A stretch of 64,000 nt of DNA from a virus. Under the pieces are notes generated by a model. It was not told the origin of the DNA and ran no database searches. It saw only the letters and a program-made list of their open reading frames with translations. Below, piece after piece: positions 21,901 through 62,578 of the stretch; position 1 is the stretch's first letter, and each line of letters begins with the position of its first letter. Location: IMG/VR virus record IMGVR_UViG_3300035670_000110, positions 24,609 through 88,608 of that record, one strand, 5' to 3'. Made by a program: the position numbers and the translations under genes.

Positions 21901-24900
21901 AATGTTATAATCTAAATTCTGGGGAACTCCATAATTTATGAGTCCGGTTCCAGCAGTAACAGGTTTTGTGGTAGGAGCAGGAGGTGGAGTAGTAGATTTT
22001 GAATACCCATAATATGGTTGACGCATTACTTGTCCGGCATAACCACCTATTTGGTTTGCAGTATTATTAGAAATTTGTCTTTGTTGAGATTGTTGTTCTA
22101 ATCTATCTGCGGATACATATCCACCTTCCGCAAATCTGGCCTGATTGATGGAATTCATCATTCCTACGCCGTACTTTTTAACAGATGATGCTTTTACAAC
22201 ATATTCACCATTAGAAAGTCTGGCTGGGATGGAATCAGATTTAGGACCTCCTGGTCCAGAAACATAACCTCCTGAATTAAATTTTACATCATATCTTTGA
22301 GTCGCGGGGTTCCATATATATCTCTTTCCATCGGGACCTGTAATTTCATTCCCACTATATGTTGTTTGCCAATTTGGAAGGAATCCTGAGCCTCCGCCAG
22401 AAGGAGTATTATTATTATTCTGTCTAGGTGGTGGGGGTGAGTAACCTGGAGGCTGTGTTTGTCCAGGGCTTCTATAATCTTCTGTCTGCGGTGTTGAAAC
22501 AGTTTGTATCCAATTTAAAATAGTTTGTAGAGGATCTTCTCCCGTCCTGGGCCTTCCAGTTACATCTCTTCCTCCCATGAGGGCGAAGTAATCTCCAGAA
22601 ATAAGTGACGCTGCCTCTCTTTGAGCCGCTTCAATATCTACAGTCAATCCGCTTTCTAGTTGCTTTCTTATAGCATCATCAAGGAATCTTTGATATCTAA
22701 GTTTAAGAATAATTGACATTTCTTCCATGTATCTTTTGCCAAATTCTTCCCCTAGTCTTTTAGTGACTTCTTTCGCACTCGTGATTTGCCCAGCATCATT
22801 TTGGCTTTGAATAACGCGGAGGTCAGCCAACTTAGTAGTTTGTTCGTTAATAGTGTCTCTAAAAGATTTTCTCTCTTCTCGCTGCCTTCTCTTAAAATTC
22901 CTTAAACGCCTTTCATATAATTCTTCTGCTTTATCTGCTGCTTCCTGTTCAGCCTCAATTTGATCATTTATTAAATCGATTCTTGTTTGGGTATCTTTTT
23001 CAAATTGTTCTTGTTTTTCTTGCTCTGTTTCTATTGTTTTATCTATAGAATCAATTTCTCTGTCCCGAGCCTCTTCGATACCTTTAATTTGTTCATCGTA
23101 TGCAAATTGTTGAGCATCTTGAGACATTTGTTGTCTATCTTGCAAGAATCCAAAAACATCTCCAGATGCAAGTTTTTCAAGGGCTGATAGAGCAGTTTTT
23201 CTTTGATTAGAATAAAAGTTATCTACTTTCTGTCTCTTTTGAATAGAATTAATATAGTTTTCCGTTGATTCATTTATTCTATCTTTTTCTTCATTTAACC
23301 CTTCGATCTTTTCTTCAAATCTTTCTCTTTCTTCTTCTGCAGCATCAGAGATGGCCTCTTTTTGTTTTTCAAGACTTTCTATTGTTTTTTCACTATCTCT
23401 GACAGATTGATTCCTTAGTCTTCTTTGCTTTCTTTCATATCTTTCATACTGTCTATCTAGTTTTTCTAAACCTTCTTGAGAATTTTGAATTAATTCTTCT
23501 GTGAAACCTATTTGTTTGTCAATTAAACTTCCAGCACTCTCTGTGAGTCCAGCAGCAATATCATTAATTTGATCTTGTAATTCTGCTCTGTTGGTTGTAA
23601 TGACAATTTCTGCTTCTAGTTTTAAGGGTCCTCCAACCATTAAAGCGTCTATAATATCCTGTATACTCATCCCCGCAGATAAAGCCTTTGATACCTGAAG
23701 GGCCAATTCTTCATCCATACCAATCATTGCAGCAAGAATAGCCCCTCTTACAGGATCTATTTCATTAATAAAATCTTTAATTGGCTGTGGGTCAAAGGCC
23801 ATCGCTGTAGATTCTTTTGCTATTTTAATAATTTGATCCATGGCCTCCATGGTTTCTTTGGGAGCCTCTTTAAAGTTTTCAAACATTATTTCTGTAATTT
23901 TTACAATACTTTCTGCGCTAATGTCGGCCATTTCCTCTATATTGGTTTGCATTTGATGGATTTGTCTTGTAACATTGGCAGCATTATCTATAGTCTCTTG
24001 CATTTTATCTTTATCAAAAATGTTTTCAAAGGCTTCGAAGTCAGTTGCTGCTCTAAGAATTTGCAGAGGAATGCTGAGATTAGTTATAAAACTTGTTAAT
24101 CCTGTACTAAGATCTCCAACCGAATTTTCCAGATTTTGAGCAATTACACCAGAAAATCTTTCTGCACCATTGAGAGTATTCTCTAGTTTATCAAGTCCTT
24201 GTTGAGTAACATCTATGGTTAATTTTTGTTTTTCTGGGTCAAACAGGTTAGCCATAGCACTGGCCAACTCTTCCGCTGTTTTTTGTTCAAACAAGCCATT
24301 CTTTAATCCTATTGCGTAGGCTTGTCCTCCAGTATAACCCGCTTCAGCGGCTATCGCCTTTACTGCATCAACAGCCTGCTCTTCTGAGAGTCCGCTTGTA
24401 ATCATTTTATTAAATGCTAGGGCTAATTCTCTAGAACCGGCTTCTGCTCCACCATATTTTATTTTTTCAATCAGGTTTCCGTAATCTTGTTGAACTGCTT
24501 TTTTAAGATTTTCATCTATTTCGCCAATTTCTCCCACCTGACTTGAGGCTTGCTTAAGTTTTTCTGTAACATCAGTTATCTGTATACCAAAAAACTCTGC
24601 TGTTTTTGCAGGATCTTCAAATGATGCAACGGCTCTTTTTCTTGCTTCTTCCGCCGCTTTTTGGTACATCATATAGCCGCCGACAGTGGTTGCGAGCGCT
24701 GCGGCAATTCCTATGCCAATAGGACCGCCAAGCATGGAAACTGCGCCGCCTGCTCTAAAAAGAAGATTTCCTTTTGATGCAGCGCCTGTTGCTAAATTGG
24801 AAGTTGGTCCAATAGCCGCCTTTGATGCTTGCATCTTTGTTCCTAGGCTTCCAAGGCCAAGGAAATTCCCCATCACATTCTTTCCGCTAAACATTTGCAT

Positions 24901-38637: not shown

Positions 38638-39387
38638 TTATATGTATCTTCCAGAAGAAAAATATTCTTCTATGTTAAATATAACATTTTTACATAATTC
38701 ATGATCAAGTTCTTCTATAATCTGATTTTTATATAAATATGCTTTATTAGAGAAACCAAATAAATTAATCAAAGACTCCAGATAATTTTTATAAACAAAC
38801 ATTACCTCACTGTTAGGATTTGCCTGAATTGGATCAAATTTATAAGAATCTGACTCTAAAAACATCAATGCGTTAGAAATATATTGTTTATAGCAAATGT
38901 CAAAGTCATACGCTAGTGGTCCGTCGATCAAAGAATTTTTCTCTGCGTACATATTAAAAGAATCTTTATGTGCTATCAAAGATCCGTCTAATGGCCATAC
39001 TTTATAGGACATATGGTAGTCGTAGTAAAAATTTTCTAATATTTCTTCTTTTATCATTGAATCTATAATTTTATTTATCTGACTTTCTTCTTTTATCATA
39101 TACATTTTATTTGATGGTTTTATAAAACATTTATGCTCTTTGCATAACTCTATAGATTGATGTAATGAAAACGGTGGAATTATAATATAATCTATTAAAA
39201 TTAATATTTCTTCATTTTTAATAGTTTCATTGATTAGTTTAATATAATTAATGTCTTTATCGAAATCGTAGGATGCTTTTTTTACATTAAACCCGATATC
39301 ATTATAATATTTTTTATAAAATAAAAATTTTTCTTCTTCATGAAAACCATCTACATAGGGTATATAAACATTATTTGTATACGACAT
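38638..39387 (-). CDS. Hypothetical protein of the modification block (249 aa)
   Basis: Rich in Tyr, Ile, Lys and Glu. It starts MSYTNNVYIPYVDGFHEEEK and has an alternating strand-helix pattern (EILILIDYIIIPPFSLHQSI) reminiscent of a Rossmann or GT-A half. No DxD or other active-site motif can be assigned. It overlaps the glycosyltransferase before it by 17 bases, so it may work in the same pathway, perhaps as a sugar-nucleotide or acceptor partner. That role is speculative. Confidence 0.68.
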   Translation of the reverse strand: MSYTNNVYIPYVDGFHEEEKFLFYKKYYNDIGFNVKKASYDFDKDINYIKLINETIKNEEILILIDYIIIPPFSLHQSIELCKEHKCFIKPSNKMYMIKEESQINKIIDSMIKEEILENFYYDYHMSYKVWPLDGSLIAHKDSFNMYAEKNSLIDGPLAYDFDICYKQYISNALMFLESDSYKFDPIQANPNSEVMFVYKNYLESLINLFGFSNKAYLYKNQIIEELDHELCKNVIFNIEEYFSSGRYI

Positions 39388-40483
39388 TAAGATTTGGAAC
39401 CTCCCACCATGGTGATGTTTTTTTATCTACAATATTAATTCCAGAGTAAGATAAAAATCCTTGAATTGATCGTGGAAGATATCCAAAAACTTTTTCTTTA
39501 TTTTCTATTAGTTTCATATTTATTAAATCATCTGATAAACAAGAATTTATTTTATTTAAATTATAATCTACTGAGTTTTTTATATAATTGTTATAAAAAT
39601 ATAATTTTTCTTCAAAGGATGTGTAACCTTCTTCATGCTTTTCTTCATATTTTCTAGAATTTACAACATCATATAAATGAAAAAATAATTGTGTTTTAAT
39701 CCATACTAAATTATATCCTCTTGCATAAGAGAGGGCCGATTGATAAAATTCTTCTCCCCAGAATTTAATATCTTTATCTAAATTAATATTATATTTTGTT
39801 AGCCATGGATCTGCTTCTGTAAAATAAAAATGTGCAGCAATTTTTTTTGCTGGTAGGTACTCATTATCTATTATTTTATTTTCAAAGATTTTTATTGATT
39901 CTTTATTCATATCTTTATCGTTGGGAAAGGGAAAAACTGTAGAATTTACTAAATCATGAGATAATTTTTTATAAAAATCAAAGAACTGCCATCTATTGGC
40001 TACGTCTCTTTTAGATTTTATAGTTTTATCTCCATCGAAATATTCACCAACTTCTTCATTAATTTTATAAGAACTTAAATATGTAGTTATTACTCTTCTT
40101 TTACCAAAAATTTTTCTAGAATTTTCATACAGATCTATAAGTTGTTCATCCCATCCCTGTACAAAATCAGTATGCGAGTCTATTGATAAAAAATATTTTT
40201 CATTATTGTAATGTTTTGTTGGAGCAATCCTCCCCTGACCAACACCAGGGTATAAAAACCATGGTTGTATATCATATTTTACTTTTTTAAAATTATTATC
40301 CAAACCATTTTTTATATGATGAAAAAATGGTTTAGAGTTTTCTTTTATATCATTACTCTTCCAAAATATTGTGGTGCCTATAGAAATATCGTCTGGATTA
40401 GACGAATAGTCATATGCCCGCTCAACAGTTGAAAGATATTCATAATCATTCATTGTTGGGACGCACATAAATATTTTATTCAT
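39371..40483 (-). CDS. GT-A glycosyltransferase, GlcNAc-transferase-like
   Basis: Predicted sugar-nucleotide transferase of 370 aa. Motifs match the phage/protist GlcNAc-transferase group: FMCVPTMNDYEYLSTVERAY at the N-terminus, GVGQGRIAPTK, YFLSIDSHTDFVQGWDEQLI with the metal-binding DSH at 102-104, and later FWGEEFYQSALSYARGYNLV. I chose the ATG at 40483 because the upstream gene ends at 40476 and the two overlap as ATGAATAA. It lies in a row with oxygenases and fibre genes, consistent with glycosylation of a virion protein or cell-surface glycan. Confidence 0.87.
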   Translation of the reverse strand: MNKIFMCVPTMNDYEYLSTVERAYDYSSNPDDISIGTTIFWKSNDIKENSKPFFHHIKNGLDNNFKKVKYDIQPWFLYPGVGQGRIAPTKHYNNEKYFLSIDSHTDFVQGWDEQLIDLYENSRKIFGKRRVITTYLSSYKINEEVGEYFDGDKTIKSKRDVANRWQFFDFYKKLSHDLVNSTVFPFPNDKDMNKESIKIFENKIIDNEYLPAKKIAAHFYFTEADPWLTKYNINLDKDIKFWGEEFYQSALSYARGYNLVWIKTQLFFHLYDVVNSRKYEEKHEEGYTSFEEKLYFYNNYIKNSVDYNLNKINSCLSDDLINMKLIENKEKVFGYLPRSIQGFLSYSGINIVDKKTSPWWEVPNLNVVYK

Positions 40484-41189
40484 AATTTTTTTTGACCCAC
40501 ATATGCTTTCTATATCCTCCATAAAAATGATCAAAAACTCTTTTATGGATTTTCATTCTTTCTTTTTCTATATCTTCATATTTCCTGATCTCTGATTTCC
40601 AATTTTCTCTTTTAAAGAAAAACATTTGATATAAAGGGGTTCCTTTAGGAATAATCCCCTCAAATCCATTTTTTAATAGGAATGGAACACTGCCTCCAAT
40701 CCACCATCTATCAGTATCTATTATTCCATCGATTGTCCTAAATGGAAGATCATATTGATTTAATGGGTGGGTATAGTATGTAGACCATCCTCTTGGAGTT
40801 CTTGGTTCCCAGTGAGTGTACCAATTTAAATGATCATCTGGATTATAGTAATAATTTTTATCCTTTGGGATAATTCTATTAGGACCCCCTCTAGATAGAA
40901 TAATATTTTCTACTTGACTGGAAGCATTAATAGAAATTTTTCCATTGGTATCAAGCCTGACACTTATATCACACCAGGCCTCTTGTATATATCCTGTTGT
41001 AAATGTATCTAAAAGAGGCATACAATTTTTTTCAGTTGAATCTGCTCTCTCACAACTAATTGTTGGAGTATGTCCTCCAGCAAAGGGAGGTAAATTTTTA
41101 TACCATTCAGGAATATAGTTTTTTGCAGGCTTGGGTGGATCTATATAATCTGATGCGTATTGACTCTGGGGAATCCATTCAACTATCAT
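40476..41189 (-). CDS. Triplicated unknown family, copy C (237 aa)
   Basis: The third of three tandem paralogues. Shared features are an N-terminal PxxWYKNLPP (here IPEWYKNLPPFAGGHTP), CxPxLDxxxxGYI, a WExxTPxGxSxxYTHP block, GxIDTDRWW and GFEGIIPKGTPLYQMFFFKR. The conserved strand series and the closing IIPxGTPxxQ look like a jelly-roll fold. I associate this pattern with the uncharacterised family DUF6065, from memory and unchecked. Function is unknown. It overlaps copy B by four bases. Confidence 0.8.
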   Translation of the reverse strand: MIVEWIPQSQYASDYIDPPKPAKNYIPEWYKNLPPFAGGHTPTISCERADSTEKNCMPLLDTFTTGYIQEAWCDISVRLDTNGKISINASSQVENIILSRGGPNRIIPKDKNYYYNPDDHLNWYTHWEPRTPRGWSTYYTHPLNQYDLPFRTIDGIIDTDRWWIGGSVPFLLKNGFEGIIPKGTPLYQMFFFKRENWKSEIRKYEDIEKERMKIHKRVFDHFYGGYRKHMWVKKNYE

Positions 41190-41926
41190 GAGTAATCCTT
41201 TCTACTCCAACATTCTTTTTTATATCCAGAACTTGCGTGTCTTCTTACTTTAGCCTGCAAAACATTATATTCTTTTTCTTCCATAAATCTTTTATCACTA
41301 ACCCAATCTTCTCTCTTAAAAGGAATAATACTCATCATTGGAGTTCCCATTGGGATTATGCCTTCAAACCCCTTTTTAATAAAAAATGGATGGTTCCCTG
41401 TGACCCACCATTTATCCGTGTCCATCACTCCAGATAAGGTATAGAATGGTAATTCTGGCCTATTTATAGGATGTGTATATAAACAACTATACCCCTCTGG
41501 AGTATTTGCCTCCCATGCAGTTTGCCATACAAATTCAATTTGGTAATAATCTTCTGGTACGGGCATTGATAGATGATTAGAAGGACCTCTGCTACCGACT
41601 ATTGAAAAATAGTCATGACTTTTTACGCTAACACTACTTCCATCGAAATTTTTTTCCACAAATACATCGCACGGTAGTGTCATTATATATCCAATCGTCC
41701 AACTATCTAAAAATGGCATACAGTGCTTTAAAGTAGAGTTATGGTTTCCAGACCCCTCAACGAAATGTGGAGATTTCGTAAAGTGAGTTGGAATGTTTTT
41801 GTACCACTCTGGAAGCAATAATTTTGCAGGAACTGGTGCATCAGAAATATCAAAAATCGTTTCATTTCTTGCAACAAAAGATATATCGTTATATTCTTTT
41901 TTTACCTTTTTATTTCTCTTAAACAT
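41186..41926 (-). CDS. Triplicated unknown family, copy B (246 aa)
   Basis: A close relative of copies A and C. Aligned landmarks are LLPEWYKNIPTHF, HCMPFLDSWTIGYIMTLPCD, ANTPEGYSCLYTHPINRPEL, VMDTDKWWVTGNHPFFIKKG and GIIPMGTPMMSIIPFKRE. The His, Asp-Thr-Asp and Trp positions are the best conserved and may form an active or ligand site. It is one base from copy A and four bases overlapping copy C, a pattern fitting local duplication. Confidence 0.8.
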   Translation of the reverse strand: MFKRNKKVKKEYNDISFVARNETIFDISDAPVPAKLLLPEWYKNIPTHFTKSPHFVEGSGNHNSTLKHCMPFLDSWTIGYIMTLPCDVFVEKNFDGSSVSVKSHDYFSIVGSRGPSNHLSMPVPEDYYQIEFVWQTAWEANTPEGYSCLYTHPINRPELPFYTLSGVMDTDKWWVTGNHPFFIKKGFEGIIPMGTPMMSIIPFKREDWVSDKRFMEEKEYNVLQAKVRRHASSGYKKECWSRKDYS

Positions 41927-42621
41927 TATTTAAATTCCTTCCTGTTCCACCAGTTTAATTTATATCTATTAATGAATGTTCTATGATGAAAGTTTTTTAA
42001 TTTTTTATATTCTTTTTCTTTAAATTCTTTTTGATCTGATTTAAAAGAATCTCGTTTAAACGGTATTACTTGAACCATTGGTGTGTTATAAGGTATAACT
42101 CCAGTAAAATTATTATTTAAAAAAAATGGGAAGTTTATTGTTAATGGGAACTCATCTGTGTCAACGATACCCTCTATTATTTTAAATGGTAAATGATGTC
42201 CTATCGGAGTTATAAAAAGACAACTATAACCTTTTGGCGTTTCTATTTTCCATGGATTTGTCCATTTAAACGCTTCTTTTTTATAAAAAGATTGAATTGG
42301 ATAGTATGGTAACTGATCTATTGTATGACCTTCTACTGCAGGTATTCTAGGATCGGTGAGGCTCCATGTAACACTGTTTTCAGAAAAATGAACGTCCGTC
42401 CATGTTTTTATAATATATCCAGTAGACAGTGCGTCTAAAACGGGGATACATTTTTTTATTGTGGCGTTTGCATTTCCAGAAGAATAAGTTTTTTCACCAT
42501 CAACATAGGGGCTAGTTTTTTTATACCATTCTGGTAAATTCTTAATTGCTGGGCTAGGAAATTCTGCTACACCGTTTAAGTCACTCTCTGTTAATATAAA
42601 ATTTATTTTTTTATCTAACAT
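41926..42621 (-). CDS. Triplicated unknown family, copy A (231 aa)
   Basis: The first and most divergent of the three copies. It keeps NLPEWYKKTSPYVDG, KKCIPVLDALSTGYIIKTWT, IETPKGYSCLFITPIGHHLP, IVDTDEFPLTINFPFFLNNN and GVIPYNTPMVQVIPFKRDSF. The THP histidine and the WW after DTD are replaced, so it may bind something different. It overlaps the upstream glycosyltransferase-like gene by seven bases. Confidence 0.78.
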   Translation of the reverse strand: MLDKKINFILTESDLNGVAEFPSPAIKNLPEWYKKTSPYVDGEKTYSSGNANATIKKCIPVLDALSTGYIIKTWTDVHFSENSVTWSLTDPRIPAVEGHTIDQLPYYPIQSFYKKEAFKWTNPWKIETPKGYSCLFITPIGHHLPFKIIEGIVDTDEFPLTINFPFFLNNNFTGVIPYNTPMVQVIPFKRDSFKSDQKEFKEKEYKKLKNFHHRTFINRYKLNWWNRKEFK

Positions 42622-43844
42622 TTTTTATTCCAATGTAAAGAATTTTCATAGGTTGAAAAATTGTATAACGATATAAAACTATTTACAGCATCTACAAAAG
42701 AGTTGCTGGAAAATATTGACCTAGGTTTAAATTTTAGTTTTTCCCAGTCTATAGATAATAAAATATTAAATTTTTCATCATCATAAACATTTTTTTCTAG
42801 CATTCTTTTTATTTCATTTATTCCTTCTGACTGTAAATAATCTTCTAGATTATATAAATCTGATGGACTTTTTTGATTTTCCCCGGAATATCTAATATCT
42901 TCGTATAATTGATAGACTGGTATGAATCTAAGCGTTATTACATTAAAATCATTAATTATAAAATTAATAAATGAATAAAAATTAAACTGACCTTCATCAA
43001 CTAGTGATTTTGGAAATGAATTATTTTTAATATAATTTTTTGCACTAGTGAAAATAAATTTATAAGATAGTCCAGTACTCAATGCAATATATTCATCTTT
43101 AATAAACTTTCTACTATTAAATCTGGGGAAATGAAATGTTTTTAAAAATTCATCATCTATTTTTACATTTTCTTTTTCTATTAAATACTGACTAATATCA
43201 GAACCGACTTCTTCTTGAGATTGATCAAAGTTTTTATTATTATCATTCACAAACTCTGTATATCCTGATACTGGTATCCTTGACCCATCATATTCTTCTC
43301 TTTGCATAGACATTTTTGTTTTATGGTTTGTAAAATATACAAAACCTTTAACAACATCATCATGCGGTAAATAATTCCTTGGCTCTGCTGTAATCACATT
43401 TTTTGGCCCCATGTTGTTTTCTATTTCTGTAAACTGTTTAATTAATATACTGTCCCAGTGTGGGTCGAACTCGCTTCTTGATGAAACGGACATATAATAA
43501 TCTTCTTTATTATATTTTGAATCGGCAATTTTTTTTAATTGTCCGAAAGTAAGTTTATTACTTAATTCTACTGTTTCTATATCCATGTTATTTTTATTAT
43601 TTTCATAGATATGCATAAGTTCAGTTGCTATATAATCGTAATTTAAATCATTATCAGAAAGTGCGATTGATATGAATATATTGTCTGGCCTTTTTGCATT
43701 TTTAAGAATAGAGTTAACTGTTCTTACAATATACGGATCTTTATAAGAAACTATAGATATAAAGATTGATTTTCTTGAATTTTTATAACCATTTGTATTA
43801 AAAATAGTTCCTTCATATGGCTCATATTTCATTGGTATATTCAT
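42615..43844 (-). CDS. Glycosyltransferase-like protein with altered DSH motif (409 aa)
   Basis: The N-terminal half follows the GlcNAc-transferase-like group: SIFISIVSYKDPYIVRTVNS, then KLTFGQLKKIADSKYNKEDY and YYMSVSSRSEFDPHWD. At the position of the metal-binding DSH found in its two relatives in this window it has SSR (121-123). The aspartate is therefore missing and the protein may be an inactive or binding-only paralogue, or use another metal ligand. The C-terminal 150 aa are unassigned. It lies between an oxygenase and the triplicated family. Confidence 0.72.
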   Translation of the reverse strand: MNIPMKYEPYEGTIFNTNGYKNSRKSIFISIVSYKDPYIVRTVNSILKNAKRPDNIFISIALSDNDLNYDYIATELMHIYENNKNNMDIETVELSNKLTFGQLKKIADSKYNKEDYYMSVSSRSEFDPHWDSILIKQFTEIENNMGPKNVITAEPRNYLPHDDVVKGFVYFTNHKTKMSMQREEYDGSRIPVSGYTEFVNDNNKNFDQSQEEVGSDISQYLIEKENVKIDDEFLKTFHFPRFNSRKFIKDEYIALSTGLSYKFIFTSAKNYIKNNSFPKSLVDEGQFNFYSFINFIINDFNVITLRFIPVYQLYEDIRYSGENQKSPSDLYNLEDYLQSEGINEIKRMLEKNVYDDEKFNILLSIDWEKLKFKPRSIFSSNSFVDAVNSFISLYNFSTYENSLHWNKKC

Positions 43845-43846
43845 AA

Positions 43847-44383
43847 TTATTTTATCTCACAATCTAAAAAGAACATGTGGTTTGGCTCAGCAAAGTGCAT
43901 GAATAACATTAAGACTTCATTGCCTTCGGTAAATTCTGGTCTTGAATGAAATTGATCTTCTCCGTAAAAACATAACGCCTGATTATTTTTAAGAATATAT
44001 TCTTTACCCTCTACAATAATCGGCCAAGGTTCTTTTGAAGACAAACAAATGTCAAAGGTATAGGTGCAGGCGTTTTGATCTTTATGATTTTCTAACCTAG
44101 AATTATATTGATTGTAATATGCTAAAAGAGAATATGTATGTAGAAGAGTGTCACTATCAAACTCTTTCCTAGCCCGATCCATATTCAGTAAGCCGATTCT
44201 ATCGCAACAATCATTTTCATTAACATATCTATTATGAAGTGGCTCAAAGTTCCAAAGATTTTTAGGAATAGAGTTTGCTATAGACATTATTTTAGAATAT
44301 TCTTTATCATTAAAGAACTTATCTATTATCCATGGATCTTTTATCTTTGCCAACGATTCACCGCCCAGGGAGGGCCAAACCAA
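43847..44383 (-). CDS. 2OG-Fe(II) oxygenase-like protein (178 aa)
   Basis: A double-stranded beta-helix hydroxylase candidate. The motif HKD (H100, D102) in NSRLENHKDQNACTYTFDIC and the distal H146 in YGEDQFHSRPEF form the HxD...H iron facial triad. R148 is a possible 2-oxoglutarate anchor. The frame opens at 44383 and overlaps the preceding gene by 43 bases. A TTG at 44353 with GGCGGTGA upstream is an alternative start that trims the overlap. It probably hydroxylates a protein or small molecule, with the substrate unknown. Confidence 0.78.
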   Translation of the reverse strand: MVWPSLGGESLAKIKDPWIIDKFFNDKEYSKIMSIANSIPKNLWNFEPLHNRYVNENDCCDRIGLLNMDRARKEFDSDTLLHTYSLLAYYNQYNSRLENHKDQNACTYTFDICLSSKEPWPIIVEGKEYILKNNQALCFYGEDQFHSRPEFTEGNEVLMLFMHFAEPNHMFFLDCEIK

Positions 44384-45012
44384 GTAACTATAGCATATTT
44401 ATATCCATCAAAAACTGGCCTAGCGGCATGTCTATAGGCATAATTAGATGGAAAAAGTGCTAATGCTGGAGAATCTGGGTTAACAGTATGGTTAAAATTA
44501 CTAAAATATGTTCCCCCACCCTCATATTCGCCAGGGTTTATATATATAAGTCCAGAAAGAACTCTATGCTCCACCCCAGGTCCATAATCTGTATGAACCT
44601 TGTACTGTCTTCCCGGTGAATATTTTAACACCTGCAACCCCTCATCAAATGCTATTTCTAGGTCATATTTAATACAATAATGTCTGACAAAAAGTGACAA
44701 TTGATCTTTAATAAACTGAACGGCACTATTTATTTGACATAAACATGGATTGTTGTGTATATCGTTATGCTCAAATATCGACATGGTAAGATTAGATCTT
44801 ACACTTCCACCATCATTACCGTCCCCGATTAACGCATTAGAATATTTAATGGGGCAACTGGGGTTATTATTTGCTTCTTCAAATGCTTCAATTAGTTTTT
44901 TAGAAATTTCTTCTGTAAAAATATTTTCATATAAATCTATAGCCCCTGATGATTCTGTCACCTTTATATTTTCAGGTAAAATAATTGTATTTTGAGTTTC
45001 TACTAAGCTCAT
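44341..45012 (-). CDS. 2OG-Fe(II) oxygenase, prolyl-4-hydroxylase type (223 aa)
   Basis: The clearest hydroxylase of the block. YSPGRQYKVHTDYGPGVEHR holds H140 and D142. INPGEYEGGGTYFSNFN is the strand region after it. ALALFPSNYAYRHAARPV gives H195, and the K205 in FDGYKYAIVTWFG is the usual 2OG-binding position. The full HxD...H...K set is typical of the P4H group, which oxidises proline or lysine side chains in proteins using 2-oxoglutarate, O2 and iron. It lies next to collagen-like fibre genes, so a fibre target is plausible but not shown. Confidence 0.9.
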   Translation of the reverse strand: MSLVETQNTIILPENIKVTESSGAIDLYENIFTEEISKKLIEAFEEANNNPSCPIKYSNALIGDGNDGGSVRSNLTMSIFEHNDIHNNPCLCQINSAVQFIKDQLSLFVRHYCIKYDLEIAFDEGLQVLKYSPGRQYKVHTDYGPGVEHRVLSGLIYINPGEYEGGGTYFSNFNHTVNPDSPALALFPSNYAYRHAARPVFDGYKYAIVTWFGPPWAVNRWQR

Positions 45013-45020
45013 TTTTTATC

Positions 45021-45695
45021 CTATCTTAAATAGGAGAACAGTAAATTTGAATTCTCCTCCAGACCATTTTCTTCGGCAAGAAAATCTTTTCCCCCGTTGA
45101 AAAATGTTGTAAGTGCTACTTTTCTACCCCTTATTATAGTATTATGTTTTTTAGAAAACAAATAATTCGCAGGATAGAATAATATAGTTCCTCTAGTCCA
45201 ATCAACATACTTTAAATTATTTAAATATTCCCACTCTATAACCCCGCCAGAATAATCATCATCTATTAAAATTTCTACAGCAACCTGTCTGCTAAAGGGG
45301 GTGTTATTTATATTACCTTCTTCATCCTGGAATGATTTATTAGGATTATAAATAAAAGATTTCTCACCAGACAGTTCTATGTCAATAAATATATTTTCTT
45401 GCCACTGAATACTGTGGATAGTTTCTTCATAAATATCGCAATATTTAGCAAAGTAATACATTATACCTTTTTGTATATTTTCCGCTGTTTCTTTTTTATT
45501 AATTTTGTCTAATCCATAAAAAAAGGTATTTTTGACTTTATCTATTAAATAATATTCTGGGTATTTATTAATATGATTATGAACAGAAACGATATCCTCA
45601 ATGTCATTTATTGATATATCATAAACATTATTATATGCAACAACTCCTGGATATAAAATAGTTTCTTTACTATCCCGTGAAAAAGAATTTATCAT
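45021..45695 (-). CDS. 2OG oxygenase paralogue with degenerate iron site (224 aa)
   Basis: It aligns by eye with the neighbouring P4H-type enzyme. FIYNPNKSFQDEEGNINNTP corresponds to the HxD strand, VAVEILIDDDYSGGVIEWEY to the GxYxGG strand, and RGTILFYPANYLFSKKHNTI plus GRKVALTTFF to the C-terminal core with H184 and R191. The first histidine of HxD is not evident (SFQDE replaces it). It may be inactive, a regulatory partner, or ligate iron differently. It overlaps the upstream gene by 26 bases. Confidence 0.72.
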   Translation of the reverse strand: MINSFSRDSKETILYPGVVAYNNVYDISINDIEDIVSVHNHINKYPEYYLIDKVKNTFFYGLDKINKKETAENIQKGIMYYFAKYCDIYEETIHSIQWQENIFIDIELSGEKSFIYNPNKSFQDEEGNINNTPFSRQVAVEILIDDDYSGGVIEWEYLNNLKYVDWTRGTILFYPANYLFSKKHNTIIRGRKVALTTFFNGGKDFLAEENGLEENSNLLFSYLR

Positions 45696-46189: not shown

Positions 46190-46855
46190 TTATACTACAA
46201 ATTGTAGAATTCTCCCATCTTCATATCCAGATACATCAAAATCTATGCCGCTTGGCTTTTCCCTAGAAGAACAATAAATTATAGCACCGCCGCCTGTAGT
46301 ATAAAAAGATCCATTATTAAATCCAGATGCATAAATTGTTCCGTTACCGCTGACTCTCCTTGCCGAAACTATTACAATTCCGCCGCCAGGATTAGTTCCA
46401 TCGCCAGCGCCTCCGGTAACACCCAAAGCAGATTGCTGAGATGCATTTAATATGTATCCATCAACTGCCAGGTTTGGATCATAAAAATATGATGCACTTC
46501 CAAAAGAAGAATCAATTTCTATAGAAGAATAACTGGCACTATCCCCTCCTAAACTATTAGAAACTGATGCTGTCCCGCCGCCAAATATTGAACCTGCCTG
46601 AGACGATCCATTAATTAAACCAACACTTGTATTTGGATCTTGACTAGATGAACCTAGAAAAATCATATTATTTCTTACAAAGATTTTATATCCATTAGTA
46701 TCTATATGTATTCCATTATTTATTTTTAAATTATTCCAATACATATCTCTTGTTAATGAAAAATTTGCCGATGCGGTAAAATTACCGTCTTTTCCAGATC
46801 CATATATAGGGTCTGGAAAAACTCTATCGTCTGATGCATAACTTTTAATTGGCAT
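46190..46855 (-). CDS. Glycine-rich fibre protein, short paralogue (221 aa)
   Basis: It shares the whole N-terminal domain with the 568-aa collagen-like protein just before it: GSGKDGNFTASANFSLTRDM, YWNNLKINNGIHIDTNGYKI, FVRNNMIFLGSSS, GSIFGGGTASVSNSLGGDSA. It lacks the collagen-like and Tyr/Asn-rich inserts and ends with a short GGGIVIVSARRVSGNGTIYA unit. It looks like a duplication of the framework of the larger gene, without the low-complexity part. Such glycine-rich beta-structured proteins are often adhesins. Confidence 0.75.
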   Translation of the reverse strand: MPIKSYASDDRVFPDPIYGSGKDGNFTASANFSLTRDMYWNNLKINNGIHIDTNGYKIFVRNNMIFLGSSSQDPNTSVGLINGSSQAGSIFGGGTASVSNSLGGDSASYSSIEIDSSFGSASYFYDPNLAVDGYILNASQQSALGVTGGAGDGTNPGGGIVIVSARRVSGNGTIYASGFNNGSFYTTGGGAIIYCSSREKPSGIDFDVSGYEDGRILQFVV

Positions 46856-48551
46856 TATCTATGGCCTCATTCTTAATAATTATTACAGTGCCAGAGGTTG
46901 GTGTTCCAGCATCACCAGTGCCCGCAGCGGCTCGAACCTCTATACTATCTGGAATATTTGACTCTGTTACAACAAGAACAACCCCTCCGCCGCCAGAATA
47001 TCCGTTAAGACCTGGAGAACCTGGAAGACCGGCGCTACCTATTCCTCCTGCACCACCCAACCCACCAGCGCCACCGGCACCTCCTGCAAAATATTCAGCC
47101 GGTTGTATGGAAAACTGATCTGGTTCAAACTCGGTGTTATAGGCGTAAGAAGTATTTCCTGGAACTATTGTATTATATACAGTGTATGAATTTCCAGGTT
47201 GAAAATAATATCCAAATGCTGGAAAATATGCAATATATGCATAGATATTTCCAGCAGTATAGAATGTATTTCCTATTACCTCATAAGATGGTCCGGGGGT
47301 GTAATATACCGTTCCTGGGTTATATCCAAGAAAAGTAAGGAAAAATTGATTTCCCGGAACTGTAAAGGCAGTTCCGGGGTTTTCGTTACTGGGCCTCCAT
47401 CTGACAGATGCTGGACCAGGAGTACGAGGATTAAATGTTGGTCTGTTATATGCAGTTGTTGGACGGTTGTATGCAGGAGTATTGTATATATATGCTGTTG
47501 GACTATTGTATAGAGTTACTCTATTGTAAGAATAAAATGGTCTATTATATGATAAAACTGGACTATTATATGCAAAAGTTCCTTGTGATCCTATAAAATT
47601 ATATCCTGGCTGTGTTGGAGAATTATAAAGAGTAGCCGCATTTCCTCCAGTTGTTGGATTAGTAAAAGAATATTCAACTGAATAATTATATCCTGGAGTT
47701 GAAACGTATAAATATGATGCGCTGTAGAAATCTGGTGCAGGCTCCCCAGGACTTCCTGGGGAGCCTGGTGGACCTGGAAAACCTGGACCTCCTATTCCAC
47801 CAGGATTTCCTGGAGAACCAGATTCTCCATCTGCTCTAATAATTCCAGAGCCAATGATATTTCTTGCTGAAATTATTACGACTCCACCGCCTGCACCACC
47901 GTCTCCTCCTAATCCTCCAGATCCACCTAGCCCAGCAAACCCTGGAGATCCAGCAGATCCTGGAAACCCTGAAGACCCCATGCCACCGGATGCACCAACG
48001 GTATATTCAAATCCCGGCCTAGATCCAGGTGATCCTGGACTTCCCGGACTACCTAATTCCCCTGCAGTAAATGATCCAGACTGTCCCGCAGATCCACTTT
48101 CCCCTATAGCACCGCCAGATCCACCCATAAGAAATCTAAGAGTTCCTTCTACCGCATCAAACTTATAGCCAGCGATTGCTTGAGAGAAATTATAAAATTC
48201 TGCTTCTCCAAAAAAGTTTTCTCCTGGGTTTAAGCCTCCGTCGCCTCCAAGAGTATCGGACGCTTTAATTCCTGATGGAGCGCCACCTAAAATACTTCCC
48301 GCAGAAGTTTTGTCTGACAATCTTCCAATAACAGCAGAAGAATCAGCCATATTTAGGGTATCTTTAACGAAAACCCTATAACCATTTGTATCAAGTTGGG
48401 CGGAACCTAGCACAGTTAGATTGTTGTAATACATGTCTCTGTTAAGTACAACCGTTCCAGTAATAATTACATTTCCGTCAGTCCCTGGGCCATATACCGC
48501 CAACCCTCCGCGACCATTAAAGTTAGTAGGAACAATATCTTGTATCGACAT
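46845..48551 (-). CDS. Collagen-like, Tyr/Asn-rich fibre protein (568 aa)
   Basis: Probable virion adhesin. Residues 1-140 match the shorter paralogue. Glycine-rich, collagen-like or polyglycine-II-like runs lie at about 142-178, 189-223, 242-272 and 489-522, with units such as GSPGSPGS and GFPGPPGSPGSPGEP. Several place Pro in the Y position. Between them, about 285-475, is a segment rich in Tyr, Asn and Pro with repeated YNSP, YNRP, YNTP and YNPG units, for which I know no named family. The GGGVVIISAR unit recurs as GGGVVLVVTE. The prolines are potential targets for the nearby P4H-type oxygenase. Polyglycine-II lattices of phage adhesins are an alternative to a triple helix. Confidence 0.82.
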   Translation of the reverse strand: MSIQDIVPTNFNGRGGLAVYGPGTDGNVIITGTVVLNRDMYYNNLTVLGSAQLDTNGYRVFVKDTLNMADSSAVIGRLSDKTSAGSILGGAPSGIKASDTLGGDGGLNPGENFFGEAEFYNFSQAIAGYKFDAVEGTLRFLMGGSGGAIGESGSAGQSGSFTAGELGSPGSPGSPGSRPGFEYTVGASGGMGSSGFPGSAGSPGFAGLGGSGGLGGDGGAGGGVVIISARNIIGSGIIRADGESGSPGNPGGIGGPGFPGPPGSPGSPGEPAPDFYSASYLYVSTPGYNYSVEYSFTNPTTGGNAATLYNSPTQPGYNFIGSQGTFAYNSPVLSYNRPFYSYNRVTLYNSPTAYIYNTPAYNRPTTAYNRPTFNPRTPGPASVRWRPSNENPGTAFTVPGNQFFLTFLGYNPGTVYYTPGPSYEVIGNTFYTAGNIYAYIAYFPAFGYYFQPGNSYTVYNTIVPGNTSYAYNTEFEPDQFSIQPAEYFAGGAGGAGGLGGAGGIGSAGLPGSPGLNGYSGGGGVVLVVTESNIPDSIEVRAAAGTGDAGTPTSGTVIIIKNEAIDNAN

Positions 48552-48886
48552 TAAGAAACCTCTACTCCTGAAATATGAATATTTAAGGATGCTGAAGCAC
48601 TTGCGAACCCATGAATAGAAGATCCTGTTGGAAGAACACTTTTAATTTCAATGCTAAGAGTGTTATTTGCTGATACTAATATTTCCGGGAAAATTTTATT
48701 TGAATTTGAGGGTGATCCTGCATTTGGAACAAAATATAATGTAGCATCTAAATCTGCTCCAGTTGTATTTGAAATTAATATTTGCTTTATTATAGATGTT
48801 GTGGAGGCAGGAACGACATATAATGCACTTGCTGTACCTGGAAGATCCCTGGCAGCAACCAGTTCCTTTAAATCAAAAACGGACAT
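48551..48886 (-). CDS. Small beta-rich fibre-associated protein (111 aa)
   Basis: Sequence such as TASALYVVPASTTSIIKQIL, DATLYFVPNAGSPSNSNKIF and ASASLNIHISGVEV forms a compact beta-sandwich pattern. Similar small proteins occur beside fibre genes in many tailed phages, where they may cap or decorate fibres. No catalytic motif is visible. The stop overlaps the start of the collagen-like gene by one base. Confidence 0.7.
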   Translation of the reverse strand: MSVFDLKELVAARDLPGTASALYVVPASTTSIIKQILISNTTGADLDATLYFVPNAGSPSNSNKIFPEILVSANNTLSIEIKSVLPTGSSIHGFASASASLNIHISGVEVS

Positions 48887-56259: not shown

Positions 56260-58194
56260 TCATGCGCTATTGATATCGACAACCTCACAGTTACCCGCAG
56301 AACAGGCTAAATCCTGAGTTCCAGTAGTTCCGTCAGATGTCTCATAGTAAGAAAGCCAATTCCAATCTATACTGGACGGCGTTTTTTCTACTAATTCATT
56401 ATACTCTGATTCTGTTATATCCTGGTAGGGCGCTTGCTGATATGTATGCTCGGAATATGGAAGGAATGAAACCCCGGACAATTCATCTATGTGCTTATAT
56501 ACCCAAGATCCTACTTCCATCCACTCATGTTCTTTTACTGAGATTGTGATCGACGGCTTGTGTTCTGTCCAATTTCTTTGATAAGCAAGCCATAGTTCTA
56601 GATGATCGATTGCTGTGAGATCTTTTCTAGTAAGAGCACCTTCTGGAGCCTTTATGGGGAAGGTGAAAACGGTAGTATCTGATGGCTTCATTACATCCGG
56701 CTCATTCATGACTCCAAAATCTCTTAATAATGTCGTAACTGGATCTTTATTATCCGCCCTAATTGTTCGTGCATAAAACTCATTGTGCCATGGATGCATA
56801 CCTGAAGAGCAATTTACTAATTGAGATACTGTTCCAGATGGCTTGACGCAAGTAATTGCTGCTGATTGATTTATTCCTAAATCATTTGCCACAGTTTTAT
56901 TTACCTCTACAGCCTTTTCCCTCATTTTGTTTAACCACTCAGATAGTTTTTCCATACCCTCTGATCCATTAAGTACTTTATGTCCTAATTGACCAGTAAG
57001 TGATACCCCAAGCAATCTTTCTTCTTCAGAATTTTTTTGCCATATTTTTCTTAAGTATTTAAATCTAGTGAATGTTGACTGGAAGGTTCCCAGAATAGTT
57101 GCTATCTCTACTTTTCTTAAAAGATCTTCTAGGGTATCATCTTCTTTTACAACAACTTCTGTTAAATTGCAGAACTGGAACGGTCTAAGAATAATTTCGC
57201 TACAAGGATTGGTTCCAAATTCATGGCCTATATCTCTACGCCCACTAACCGACGCAACTCTTCTAGCAGCATCCCTAGAAAAGATGCCACGCTCTCCAGA
57301 TTTAGAATCATAAAGTGACTTCCATTCCGCCATAAAAACTTCCATGCTTGGCCTTGAGTCGTAGACGGCTGAATTATTTGCTAAGGCTCTCTGCCCATTA
57401 TACTCCCACCATGATCCCGCTTTGGCAGCAGCCATGTTTCTATCTTCTAAATCAGAAAGTGATATCATAGCGGATCTTCTTACTCCACCAACTACTACAA
57501 CTTCTGCAATTTTACACATAATGTCGTGGGCTTCTAGAGGTGTTAGTTTTCTTCCAGAAGCATTTTTTATTGTATCTACCGTGAATTTAAATAATCTTTC
57601 TAGTGGTTCTGGACCAGACGCACGACCGCCAAAAGTTTTAAGTCTAGCACCTGCTGGACGTACGTTAGAAACATCCCATGAGGGAACCTGTCCTTGATAT
57701 AAAAGAGCAATTAACTCTCTAAGAGCCTTAGCCCATCCAGCCTTAGAGTCGTCAACCATAATTATGGTATTTGAATTTTCAAAATGCTCGTTAATAACTG
57801 GAAGTTGATTAACGTATTTAGATTCTACTGAGTATCCAACTCCAGTTCCACACATAAGAATGTACATTGCTTCATCGAATGACCTCAGTGAGTCTACTGG
57901 TAGGTAACTACAGTTATACAAGCATGTACTGTCTCTTTCCAGCGCCGGGCCAGCGGTCATTAGACCTCTCATGGAGGGCATTACATCTGTTTGTAAAATA
58001 GCATCTAGAATTAATTGCTTAGTAAATTCATCTACATGATAGTCATTATGTTTTATTAACGTGTCGCATACATAATTTACATATCGCCCAACTGTTTCAT
58101 GCCAGTCCTCTCTTCTATTCTCTTCTTCTATCCATCTTGCGTATCTTGTTTTATGAATAACTTGCTGATAGGCTGTTGGCAATGAAACTGTCAT
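56260..58194 (-). CDS. nrdJ: Class II adenosylcobalamin-dependent ribonucleotide reductase
   Basis: A 644-aa monomeric RTPR-type enzyme that makes deoxynucleotides for phage DNA. Active-site landmarks follow the Lactobacillus leichmannii enzyme: STCLYNC (C91/C95), then NPCSEIILRPFQFC with N329, C331 (thiyl radical), E333 and C342, spaced exactly as N406, C408, E410 and C419. VKPSGTVSQLVNCSSGMHPW lies near 450, and the C-terminal redox pair is CSAGNC at 631/636. I prefer the ATG at 58194, with GGAGTGG seven bases before it, to the upstream ATG of the open frame. It needs host B12. Confidence 0.95.
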   Translation of the reverse strand: MTVSLPTAYQQVIHKTRYARWIEEENRREDWHETVGRYVNYVCDTLIKHNDYHVDEFTKQLILDAILQTDVMPSMRGLMTAGPALERDSTCLYNCSYLPVDSLRSFDEAMYILMCGTGVGYSVESKYVNQLPVINEHFENSNTIIMVDDSKAGWAKALRELIALLYQGQVPSWDVSNVRPAGARLKTFGGRASGPEPLERLFKFTVDTIKNASGRKLTPLEAHDIMCKIAEVVVVGGVRRSAMISLSDLEDRNMAAAKAGSWWEYNGQRALANNSAVYDSRPSMEVFMAEWKSLYDSKSGERGIFSRDAARRVASVSGRRDIGHEFGTNPCSEIILRPFQFCNLTEVVVKEDDTLEDLLRKVEIATILGTFQSTFTRFKYLRKIWQKNSEEERLLGVSLTGQLGHKVLNGSEGMEKLSEWLNKMREKAVEVNKTVANDLGINQSAAITCVKPSGTVSQLVNCSSGMHPWHNEFYARTIRADNKDPVTTLLRDFGVMNEPDVMKPSDTTVFTFPIKAPEGALTRKDLTAIDHLELWLAYQRNWTEHKPSITISVKEHEWMEVGSWVYKHIDELSGVSFLPYSEHTYQQAPYQDITESEYNELVEKTPSSIDWNWLSYYETSDGTTGTQDLACSAGNCEVVDINSA

Positions 58195-58311
58195 ATATAT
58201 CCACTCCGTTATATAAATATAATTGGCTACCATCTCTAGATGGTAACCTTAATAATTCTACTACTACTTTCCTTCAAAGTATATGATTTTTATGTGTGAT
58301 ATTATATCGAC
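58195..58311. promoter_or_regulatory. Divergent intergenic region with palindrome (58228-58245)
   Basis: This 117-base gap separates the minus-strand ribonucleotide reductase from a plus-strand small gene. A palindrome, TACCATCT-CT-AGATGGTA, sits 34 bases upstream of the reductase start and may be an operator or the end of a short terminator. The gap is too short to hold a cobalamin riboswitch and none of its conserved elements were noticed. AT-rich TATTATATC precedes the plus-strand start. Confidence 0.5.
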
Positions 58312-61894: not shown

Positions 61895-62578
61895 GTGAAG
61901 ATTTTAGATAAAGGATATATCAATCTTGTTAATGTTATGGGTTCTGATTTAGATGTTGTAAACTCTGCAAGAGTTAGTTTTGATAAATATGTAGATACCT
62001 TAGAAAATAAGGATATTAAACTAATTAATTATCTTATTGAACATAAGCATGATTCCGTTTTGAGACATTGTTCCATGTCCTTTGAAGTCTACGCCCCACT
62101 TTTCGTTGCTCGCCAATGGTGGAAGCACCATGTTTCTAGCACACATGTGGATGATGCGAACGGCTGGAATGAATCTTCTCGCAGATATGTTACCGAAGAG
62201 CCAGAGTTCTACATTCCTGGGGACTGGAGGGGCGCTGCGGAGAATAAAAAACAAGGTAGTAGTGATCCTGTGGACTCACATATTTCCGACAAGCACAACC
62301 GGCTTTTAGAGTATTTTGTAGAAACTGGAATCAGTGCCTATACCGCCGCCATGCAAGACGGAATAGCAGTAGAACAGGCAAGATTATTTCTTCCTGCTTA
62401 TGCTATGTATGTGAGATGGAGATGGACGGCTTCTCTCAATGCACTCCTCCACTTTATTTCATTACGATTAGATAACCATGCACAATGGGAAATACAACAG
62501 TACGCCATCGCGGTGGCGGAAATGGTGAAATCTCATTTCCCTCATACCTATGAAGCATGGGAGACATATCGTGTCTGA
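61895..62578 (+). CDS. thyX: FAD-dependent thymidylate synthase
   Basis: A 227-aa flavin-dependent enzyme that converts dUMP to dTMP using NADPH and methylenetetrahydrofolate. VLRHCSMSFEVYAPLFVARQ and WNESSRRY (91-98) are the family landmarks. The usual RHRx7S signature reads WWKHH (75-79), with about seven extra residues (THVDDAN) before WNESSRRY. The usual Arg, His, Arg set is thus changed to Lys, His, His. The start is GTG with AAGGAG. It overlaps the next gene by eight bases. Confidence 0.92.
   Translation: MKILDKGYINLVNVMGSDLDVVNSARVSFDKYVDTLENKDIKLINYLIEHKHDSVLRHCSMSFEVYAPLFVARQWWKHHVSSTHVDDANGWNESSRRYVTEEPEFYIPGDWRGAAENKKQGSSDPVDSHISDKHNRLLEYFVETGISAYTAAMQDGIAVEQARLFLPAYAMYVRWRWTASLNALLHFISLRLDNHAQWEIQQYAIAVAEMVKSHFPHTYEAWETYRV

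Follow-up and report, generated by a model that had tools for sequence, protein, structure and literature searches.

Matched and mirrored repeat arms in the insert of a phage fibre-like protein suggest a register-locked hairpin needle

The window considered here is the whole stretch of DNA that was analyzed, 64,000 nt corresponding to positions 24,609–88,608 of the IMG/VR record IMGVR_UViG_3300035670_000110, whose parent viral contig is 88.6 kb long. One of its genes encodes a 568-aa fibre/adhesin-like protein with a Tyr-, Asn- and Pro-rich insert in a Gly-rich scaffold. At the level of primary sequence, comparison of this insert with its relatives shows two arms of matched length with mirrored spacing of their repeat units, repeat type X on one arm opposite type Z on the other, and changes in length that occur on both arms together. 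Antiparallel contact between the arms would give rise to such register-locked co-variation, which points to an antiparallel hairpin. The insert is probably an antiparallel, register-locked needle at the distal end of the Gly-rich fibre scaffold. The gene and the parts of its product are listed below.

46845–48551, minus strand: fibre/adhesin-like protein with the putative hairpin insert, 568 aa; ATG start, homologues found.
48123–48551, minus strand: conserved N-terminal domain, residues 1–143, motif LNRDMYYNNLTV...LDTNGYRVFVKDTL, from alignments A1 and A2.
47739–48122, minus strand: Gly-rich (GXX) strands, residues 144–271, with VVIISARNIIGSGIIRADG in between; Gly columns invariant and nearly gap-free in A1.
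47433–47738, minus strand: ascending arm, residues 272–373, with Z-type units YNSP, YNRP and YNTP, from comparison with relatives.
47394–47432, minus strand: tip motif NPRTPGPASVRWR, residues 374–386, at the midpoint (0.50) of the insert; conserved block.
47085–47393, minus strand: descending arm, residues 387–489, with X-type units PGT, PGN and PGP, from comparison with relatives.
46845–47084, minus strand: returning Gly-rich strand and C-terminal beta segments, residues 490–568; invariant columns in A1 and A2.

An earlier sequence-only reading had proposed a domain of YNSP, YNRP and YNTP units at about residues 285–475 of this protein. A Y/N/P-rich segment does exist, but its true span is residues 272–489 (218 aa; Y 14.7, P 11.5, T 11.5, and N 10.6%). 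The YNxP-type repeats are genuine. YN occurs 13 times compared with 3.4 in shuffled sequences and YN[SRT]P seven times compared with 0.1, counts that none of 5000 shuffles reached in either case, and the top self-match of the insert is at lag 7, followed by lags 12–14 and 20. These units are confined to residues 309–371 in the first arm, however, and the second half of the insert is made from PGN, PGT, and PGP units, so that a simple YNxP domain is not supported. The same reading correctly placed the insert between glycine-rich segments, which are (GXX)n runs at residues 144–271 and 490–525, and correctly assigned it to no known family, as neither Pfam nor PHROG searches returned a family over residues 272–489. 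Matches elsewhere in the protein were weak and were to Gly-rich or collagen-like models. Collagen (PF01391) scored 15.8 bits, below the Pfam cut-off of 27.2, and the tail fiber protein family PHROG 5073 matched residues 144–285 weakly (E 2e-4). The latter match is probably compositional, with the insert outside the matched part. The location of the insert in a phage fibre-like protein is also supported, and an adhesin role for the protein is plausible.

A scan of IMG/VR with the 568-aa protein returned seven full-length relatives with 48–66% identity in the best segment, representing six distinct sequences because L006 and L007 are apparent copies of one. The seven homologues carry the insert at the same site on other IMG/VR contigs, which rules out an assembly artefact. 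Alignment A1 is conserved and nearly gap-free over the N-terminal domain, the Gly-rich strands and the C-terminal part, and the region from A272-P273 to G490-G491, invariant columns that define the edges of the insert, is hypervariable. The length of the flanking Gly-rich runs is nearly constant among close relatives. Judging from the alignment, this appears to fit a packed polyglycine-II type scaffold, as proposed for residues 144–271, better than free collagen tails. The N-terminal domain (residues 1–143) may be beta-helix-like, and this region is 38% identical to a paralogous stretch in the adjacent gene. A profile scan added more distant groups with the same insertion site and quite different repeats, including PGNNYSY/NPTNYGS, YTYTAGSGATTNPNN, ATNYP, EVRLVEGRVN, and the His-rich HHHVNGG/HHHTNP or NHHHT. 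Insert length and repeat alphabet differ strongly among relatives from other metagenomes, yet the arms remain matched. These comparisons back the earlier suggestion of an ordered, repeat-built module and favour a hairpin of two arms around a conserved centre over the 'sticky low-complexity fibre' that had also been suggested.

Searches outside this set returned little. In tblastn searches of INPHARED, no cultured phage had a detectable relative of any query used, namely the window protein, the small paralogue, L019, L029 and L066. The insert had no match in a scan of bacterial genomes, and a scan of the same kind with the scaffold profile gave mainly N-terminal domain matches. Profile searches of the PDB gave only weak, apparently compositional matches. 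The insert of one relative, used alone as query, found itself and its sister only, and so there is no sign of the module moving to other scaffolds. In the open-licence literature, no description of matched arms of this kind was found.

The window protein and its relatives L003, L004, and L009 share the block NPRT[PL]GPASVR[WY]R, which lies at 0.50–0.51 of the insert in all four (inserts of 183–218 aa). Ascending and descending arms measure 102/103 residues in the window and 90/90, 85/85, and 87/88 in the others, a difference of 0 or −1. In the L019 group, the ascending arm ranges from 55 to 73 aa, and ascending minus descending equals 4 in 20/20 distinct inserts of nine length classes. The three L025-type inserts have differences of 3, 3, and 3; L005 and L008 have the centre NPFARNPARQFGGN in common and give 0 and 2. 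Scaffolds of the L019 and L025 types form 15 clusters at 90% identity, and the constant difference is therefore not one sequence counted repeatedly. This test is independent of the definitions of the X and Z markers and covers inserts other than the most His-rich ones (L035, L041, L046, L047, and L221).

Close relatives show the arms changing together. L024 (57/53) differs from L020 (55/51) by +2/+2 on scaffolds that are 92% identical, and L028 (45/42) differs from L025 (48/45) by a three-residue shift on both arms on scaffolds that are 95% identical. L062 and L066 are seven residues apart in one arm and six in the second, in both cases roughly the length of a unit, and within each of them the two arms are unequal by 14–15 residues. 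Each arm of L029 contains a tandem duplication of 48 residues (144 bp), and the two duplications mirror each other about the tip. In the B group (L026, L029, and L030), arms measured from the motif are unequal by 9–18 residues, probably because of a larger, asymmetric tip. A disordered, sticky low-complexity linker that evolves through replication slippage would account for the biased composition and the tandem DNA repeats. Slippage in one arm should not be matched in the other, however, and with 20/20 inserts holding the same difference this explanation is hardly credible. The 144-bp duplications on either side of the tip within one gene (L029:5956–8157) present a puzzle as to how both arms duplicate together. 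The mirrored arms could have arisen by inverted DNA duplication, but the codons of the units, read by eye, showed no match in reverse complement.

When the inserts are folded at the tip, their units mirror one another one for one. In L115, spacing from the tip is 7, 7, 7, 4, 4, 4, 4 on both arms, with PGNNYSY and GYSY (X) on one arm and NPTNYGS and NYGA (Z) on the other. X is on the ascending and Z on the descending arm in L019, L022, and L104, and the reverse holds for L109, L115, and L117. In L020, L024, and L105, X and Z switch part way along, on both arms at the same mirrored place. In the L019 group, the largest, 125/127 facing pairs are X-Z (a count that still contains three mis-anchored inserts), compared with a mean of 54% and a maximum of 84% in 2000 arm-swap trials; the markers here were YSY and N[YSNF]G and, like all X and Z markers, were set after the sequences had been looked at. 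Mutual information between mirrored residues is 0.7–1.0 bits near register and ≤0.20 in swaps. For the window's group, with X defined as [PAGT]G[NTS] and Z as NP or NxP, 25/25 facing markers are X-Z at offset +3, where Pro faces Pro. Exchange of arms among its four members (derangements) lowers the X-Z share to 53–75%. The ascending arm of the window insert has eight Z and one X markers, and the descending arm has six X and no Z.

The B group pooled at one offset gave no X-Z signal, as tip size varies among its members. Taken singly, two of the three members fit at the predicted offset, and the third, L030, has no usable Z markers. L026 and L029 have 18-residue units, each with an X part and a Z part. 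Alignment of the arm bases predicts offsets of −13 and −18, respectively, and X-Z facing is near its maximum there (10/11 in L026 compared with 0/10 at half-period, and 24/25 in L029 compared with 2/25). These observations suggest a two-letter rule in which a PGN-class unit pairs exclusively with an NPT-class unit, one to one and antiparallel, leaving the needle free to lengthen, shorten or cross over provided that both arms change together. This rule, loosely comparable to base pairing, is slightly favoured. Each arm could also be an independent solenoid or spiral stack, with equal arms merely keeping the tip centred. The clear short periods of 4, 5, 7, 9, and 13 residues would suit such stacks. 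Residue-exact compensation, mirrored spacing, X-Z facing and simultaneous switching would be left unexplained, and this reading is quite improbable.

The hairpin needle would be built as follows. From the last outgoing Gly-rich strand, the chain would run into the ascending arm, made of short units with turns, the central tip would turn it, and the descending arm would lead it back to the first returning Gly-rich strand. The arms would keep a fixed register, every PGN-type turn (X) lying across from an NPT/NxP-type turn (Z) of the opposite arm, with turn spacing of 4, 5, 7 or 9 residues identical on both arms. The scaffold would consist of a probable beta-helix base with polyglycine-II strands, and the long hairpin with its tip would be mounted distally. 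The needle, presumably rigid and adjustable in length, would project its tip towards a receptor on the host cell, and its length (arms of ~42 to 209 residues) may be tuned to the reach that the tip needs. The physical pairing of the arms, as we infer it, could be within one chain or between the chains of a trimer.

The plan appears to resemble the stem and tip of T4 gp37 placed on a scaffold like that of T2/S16 gp38. In T4 gp37, domain D11 is an insertion in D10 with stem halves at residues 882–931 and 960–1009 (50 + 50) around a tip at 932–959, and this needle binds LPS and OmpC (PMC6957217). The present insert is likewise placed in a scaffold, with nearly equal arms (102/103 in the window) around a central tip. 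The gp37 needle contains iron (PMC6957217), and its stem has seven HxH sites. HxH motifs also occur in the L019 group, where HTHYHWH and HYHYxHxH blocks lie beside the tip and L019-type relatives have five HxH; by analogy with gp37, these blocks suggest metal binding in the His-containing groups. On this basis, the arms could pair mainly between chains: as in gp37 D11, six strands from three copies would intertwine into a needle, and in His-containing relatives the HxH motifs would bind metal. The window insert has no His, no HxH is present in it or its nearest relatives, and hhalign detected no sequence homology to gp37 (probability 0.6%). Between-chain pairing is given somewhat less than even weight. 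The T4 stem, on reading, has no X/Z repeats, unlike the present insert, and gp37 has a collar fold in place of a Gly-rich scaffold. The gp38 proteins of PP01 and S16 have a beta-helix base with polyglycine-II strands (PMC12892980). The likeness to T2/PP01/S16 gp38 consists of Gly-rich motifs around a variable distal segment (A1) and a base that is probably beta-helix-like here, although gp38 has short receptor loops and the present proteins have one long hairpin of ~120 to 420 aa. No homology to S16 gp38 was detected by hhalign (probability 0.1%). Marine phage fibres such as R22Y gp12 have predicted HxH iron sites (PMC11705849) and in this respect are like the His-containing relatives. In the parts of that source consulted, the HxH motifs are in an N-terminal segment, and matched repeat arms are not described (PMC11705849).

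Very His-rich inserts (24–36% His) occupy the same position in related fibre proteins, namely L066:6684–8474, L062, L047, and L035. In L062 and L066, one arm has HHHVNGG and the opposite arm HHHTNP; the His-rich inserts are possibly metal-loaded needles. L005:5001–6869 has arms of EVRLVEGRVN-type 13-residue repeats in which Glu and Arg alternate, a pattern that suggests a hairpin of the same kind based on salt bridges. To our knowledge, few repeat proteins show a pairing rule between two arms that is explicit and readable. If the pairing rule is physical, rigid rods could be designed to a chosen length on its principle, and it would show how a phage can change the reach of its fibre without losing the tip. 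A class of unannotated low-complexity phage sequence becomes a recognizable, testable module: the sequence by itself is enough to test whether the arms are equal, and for many uncultured phages the fold would be settled by a single structure.

Receptor binding is probably the likeliest role of the needle, and the projection of the tip towards a receptor, with length tuned to reach, is inferred with it. In the window's group, the tip is more conserved than the arms, which is unlike a hypervariable receptor loop and counts against the needle reading. The hairpin could instead serve as a strut or connector in the structure, or be a substrate for hydroxylation and glycosylation. The conserved tip of the window's group fits this alternative, as do the conserved genes nearby for a 2OG-Fe(II) oxygenase and a PF11397 glycosyltransferase. 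Very variable arms on a constant scaffold would, on the other hand, typify exposed, host-facing parts, and the alternative is considered unlikely, though worth keeping in mind. Genes near the fibre gene are as follows.

48551–48886, minus strand: 111-aa protein directly upstream of the fibre gene, in the same place in relatives; weak match to phrog_1276 (function unknown).
46190–46855, minus strand: 221-aa scaffold paralogue without insert, directly downstream of the fibre gene; the pair is conserved.
44341–45012, minus strand: 2OG-Fe(II) oxygenase (PF13640), conserved cassette gene.
42615–43844, minus strand: glycosyltransferase (GlcNAc; PF11397), conserved cassette gene.
39371–40534: second PF11397 glycosyltransferase, conserved block.

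The conserved cassette consists of the 111-aa protein, the hairpin fibre, the small paralogue, a 171-aa protein, the 2OG-Fe(II) oxygenase and similar genes, the PF11397 glycosyltransferase, and phrog_7084 proteins, some of which are absent depending on the group. The insert-free paralogue follows the hairpin fibre gene in most loci. The PF13640 oxygenase may be a prolyl hydroxylase, and the family PF11397 includes the Skp1 hydroxyproline GlcNAc-transferase. The pair offers a lead that the prolines of the fibre are possibly hydroxylated and glycosylated. Just downstream of the fibre genes (42615–45695), two genes resemble the oxygenase by eye and have no Pfam match. The block at 39371–41926 also contains a tandem pair of phrog_7084 proteins (function unknown). 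The phage contig also carries ribonucleotide reductase and thymidylate synthase genes at 56260–58233 and 61895–62578.
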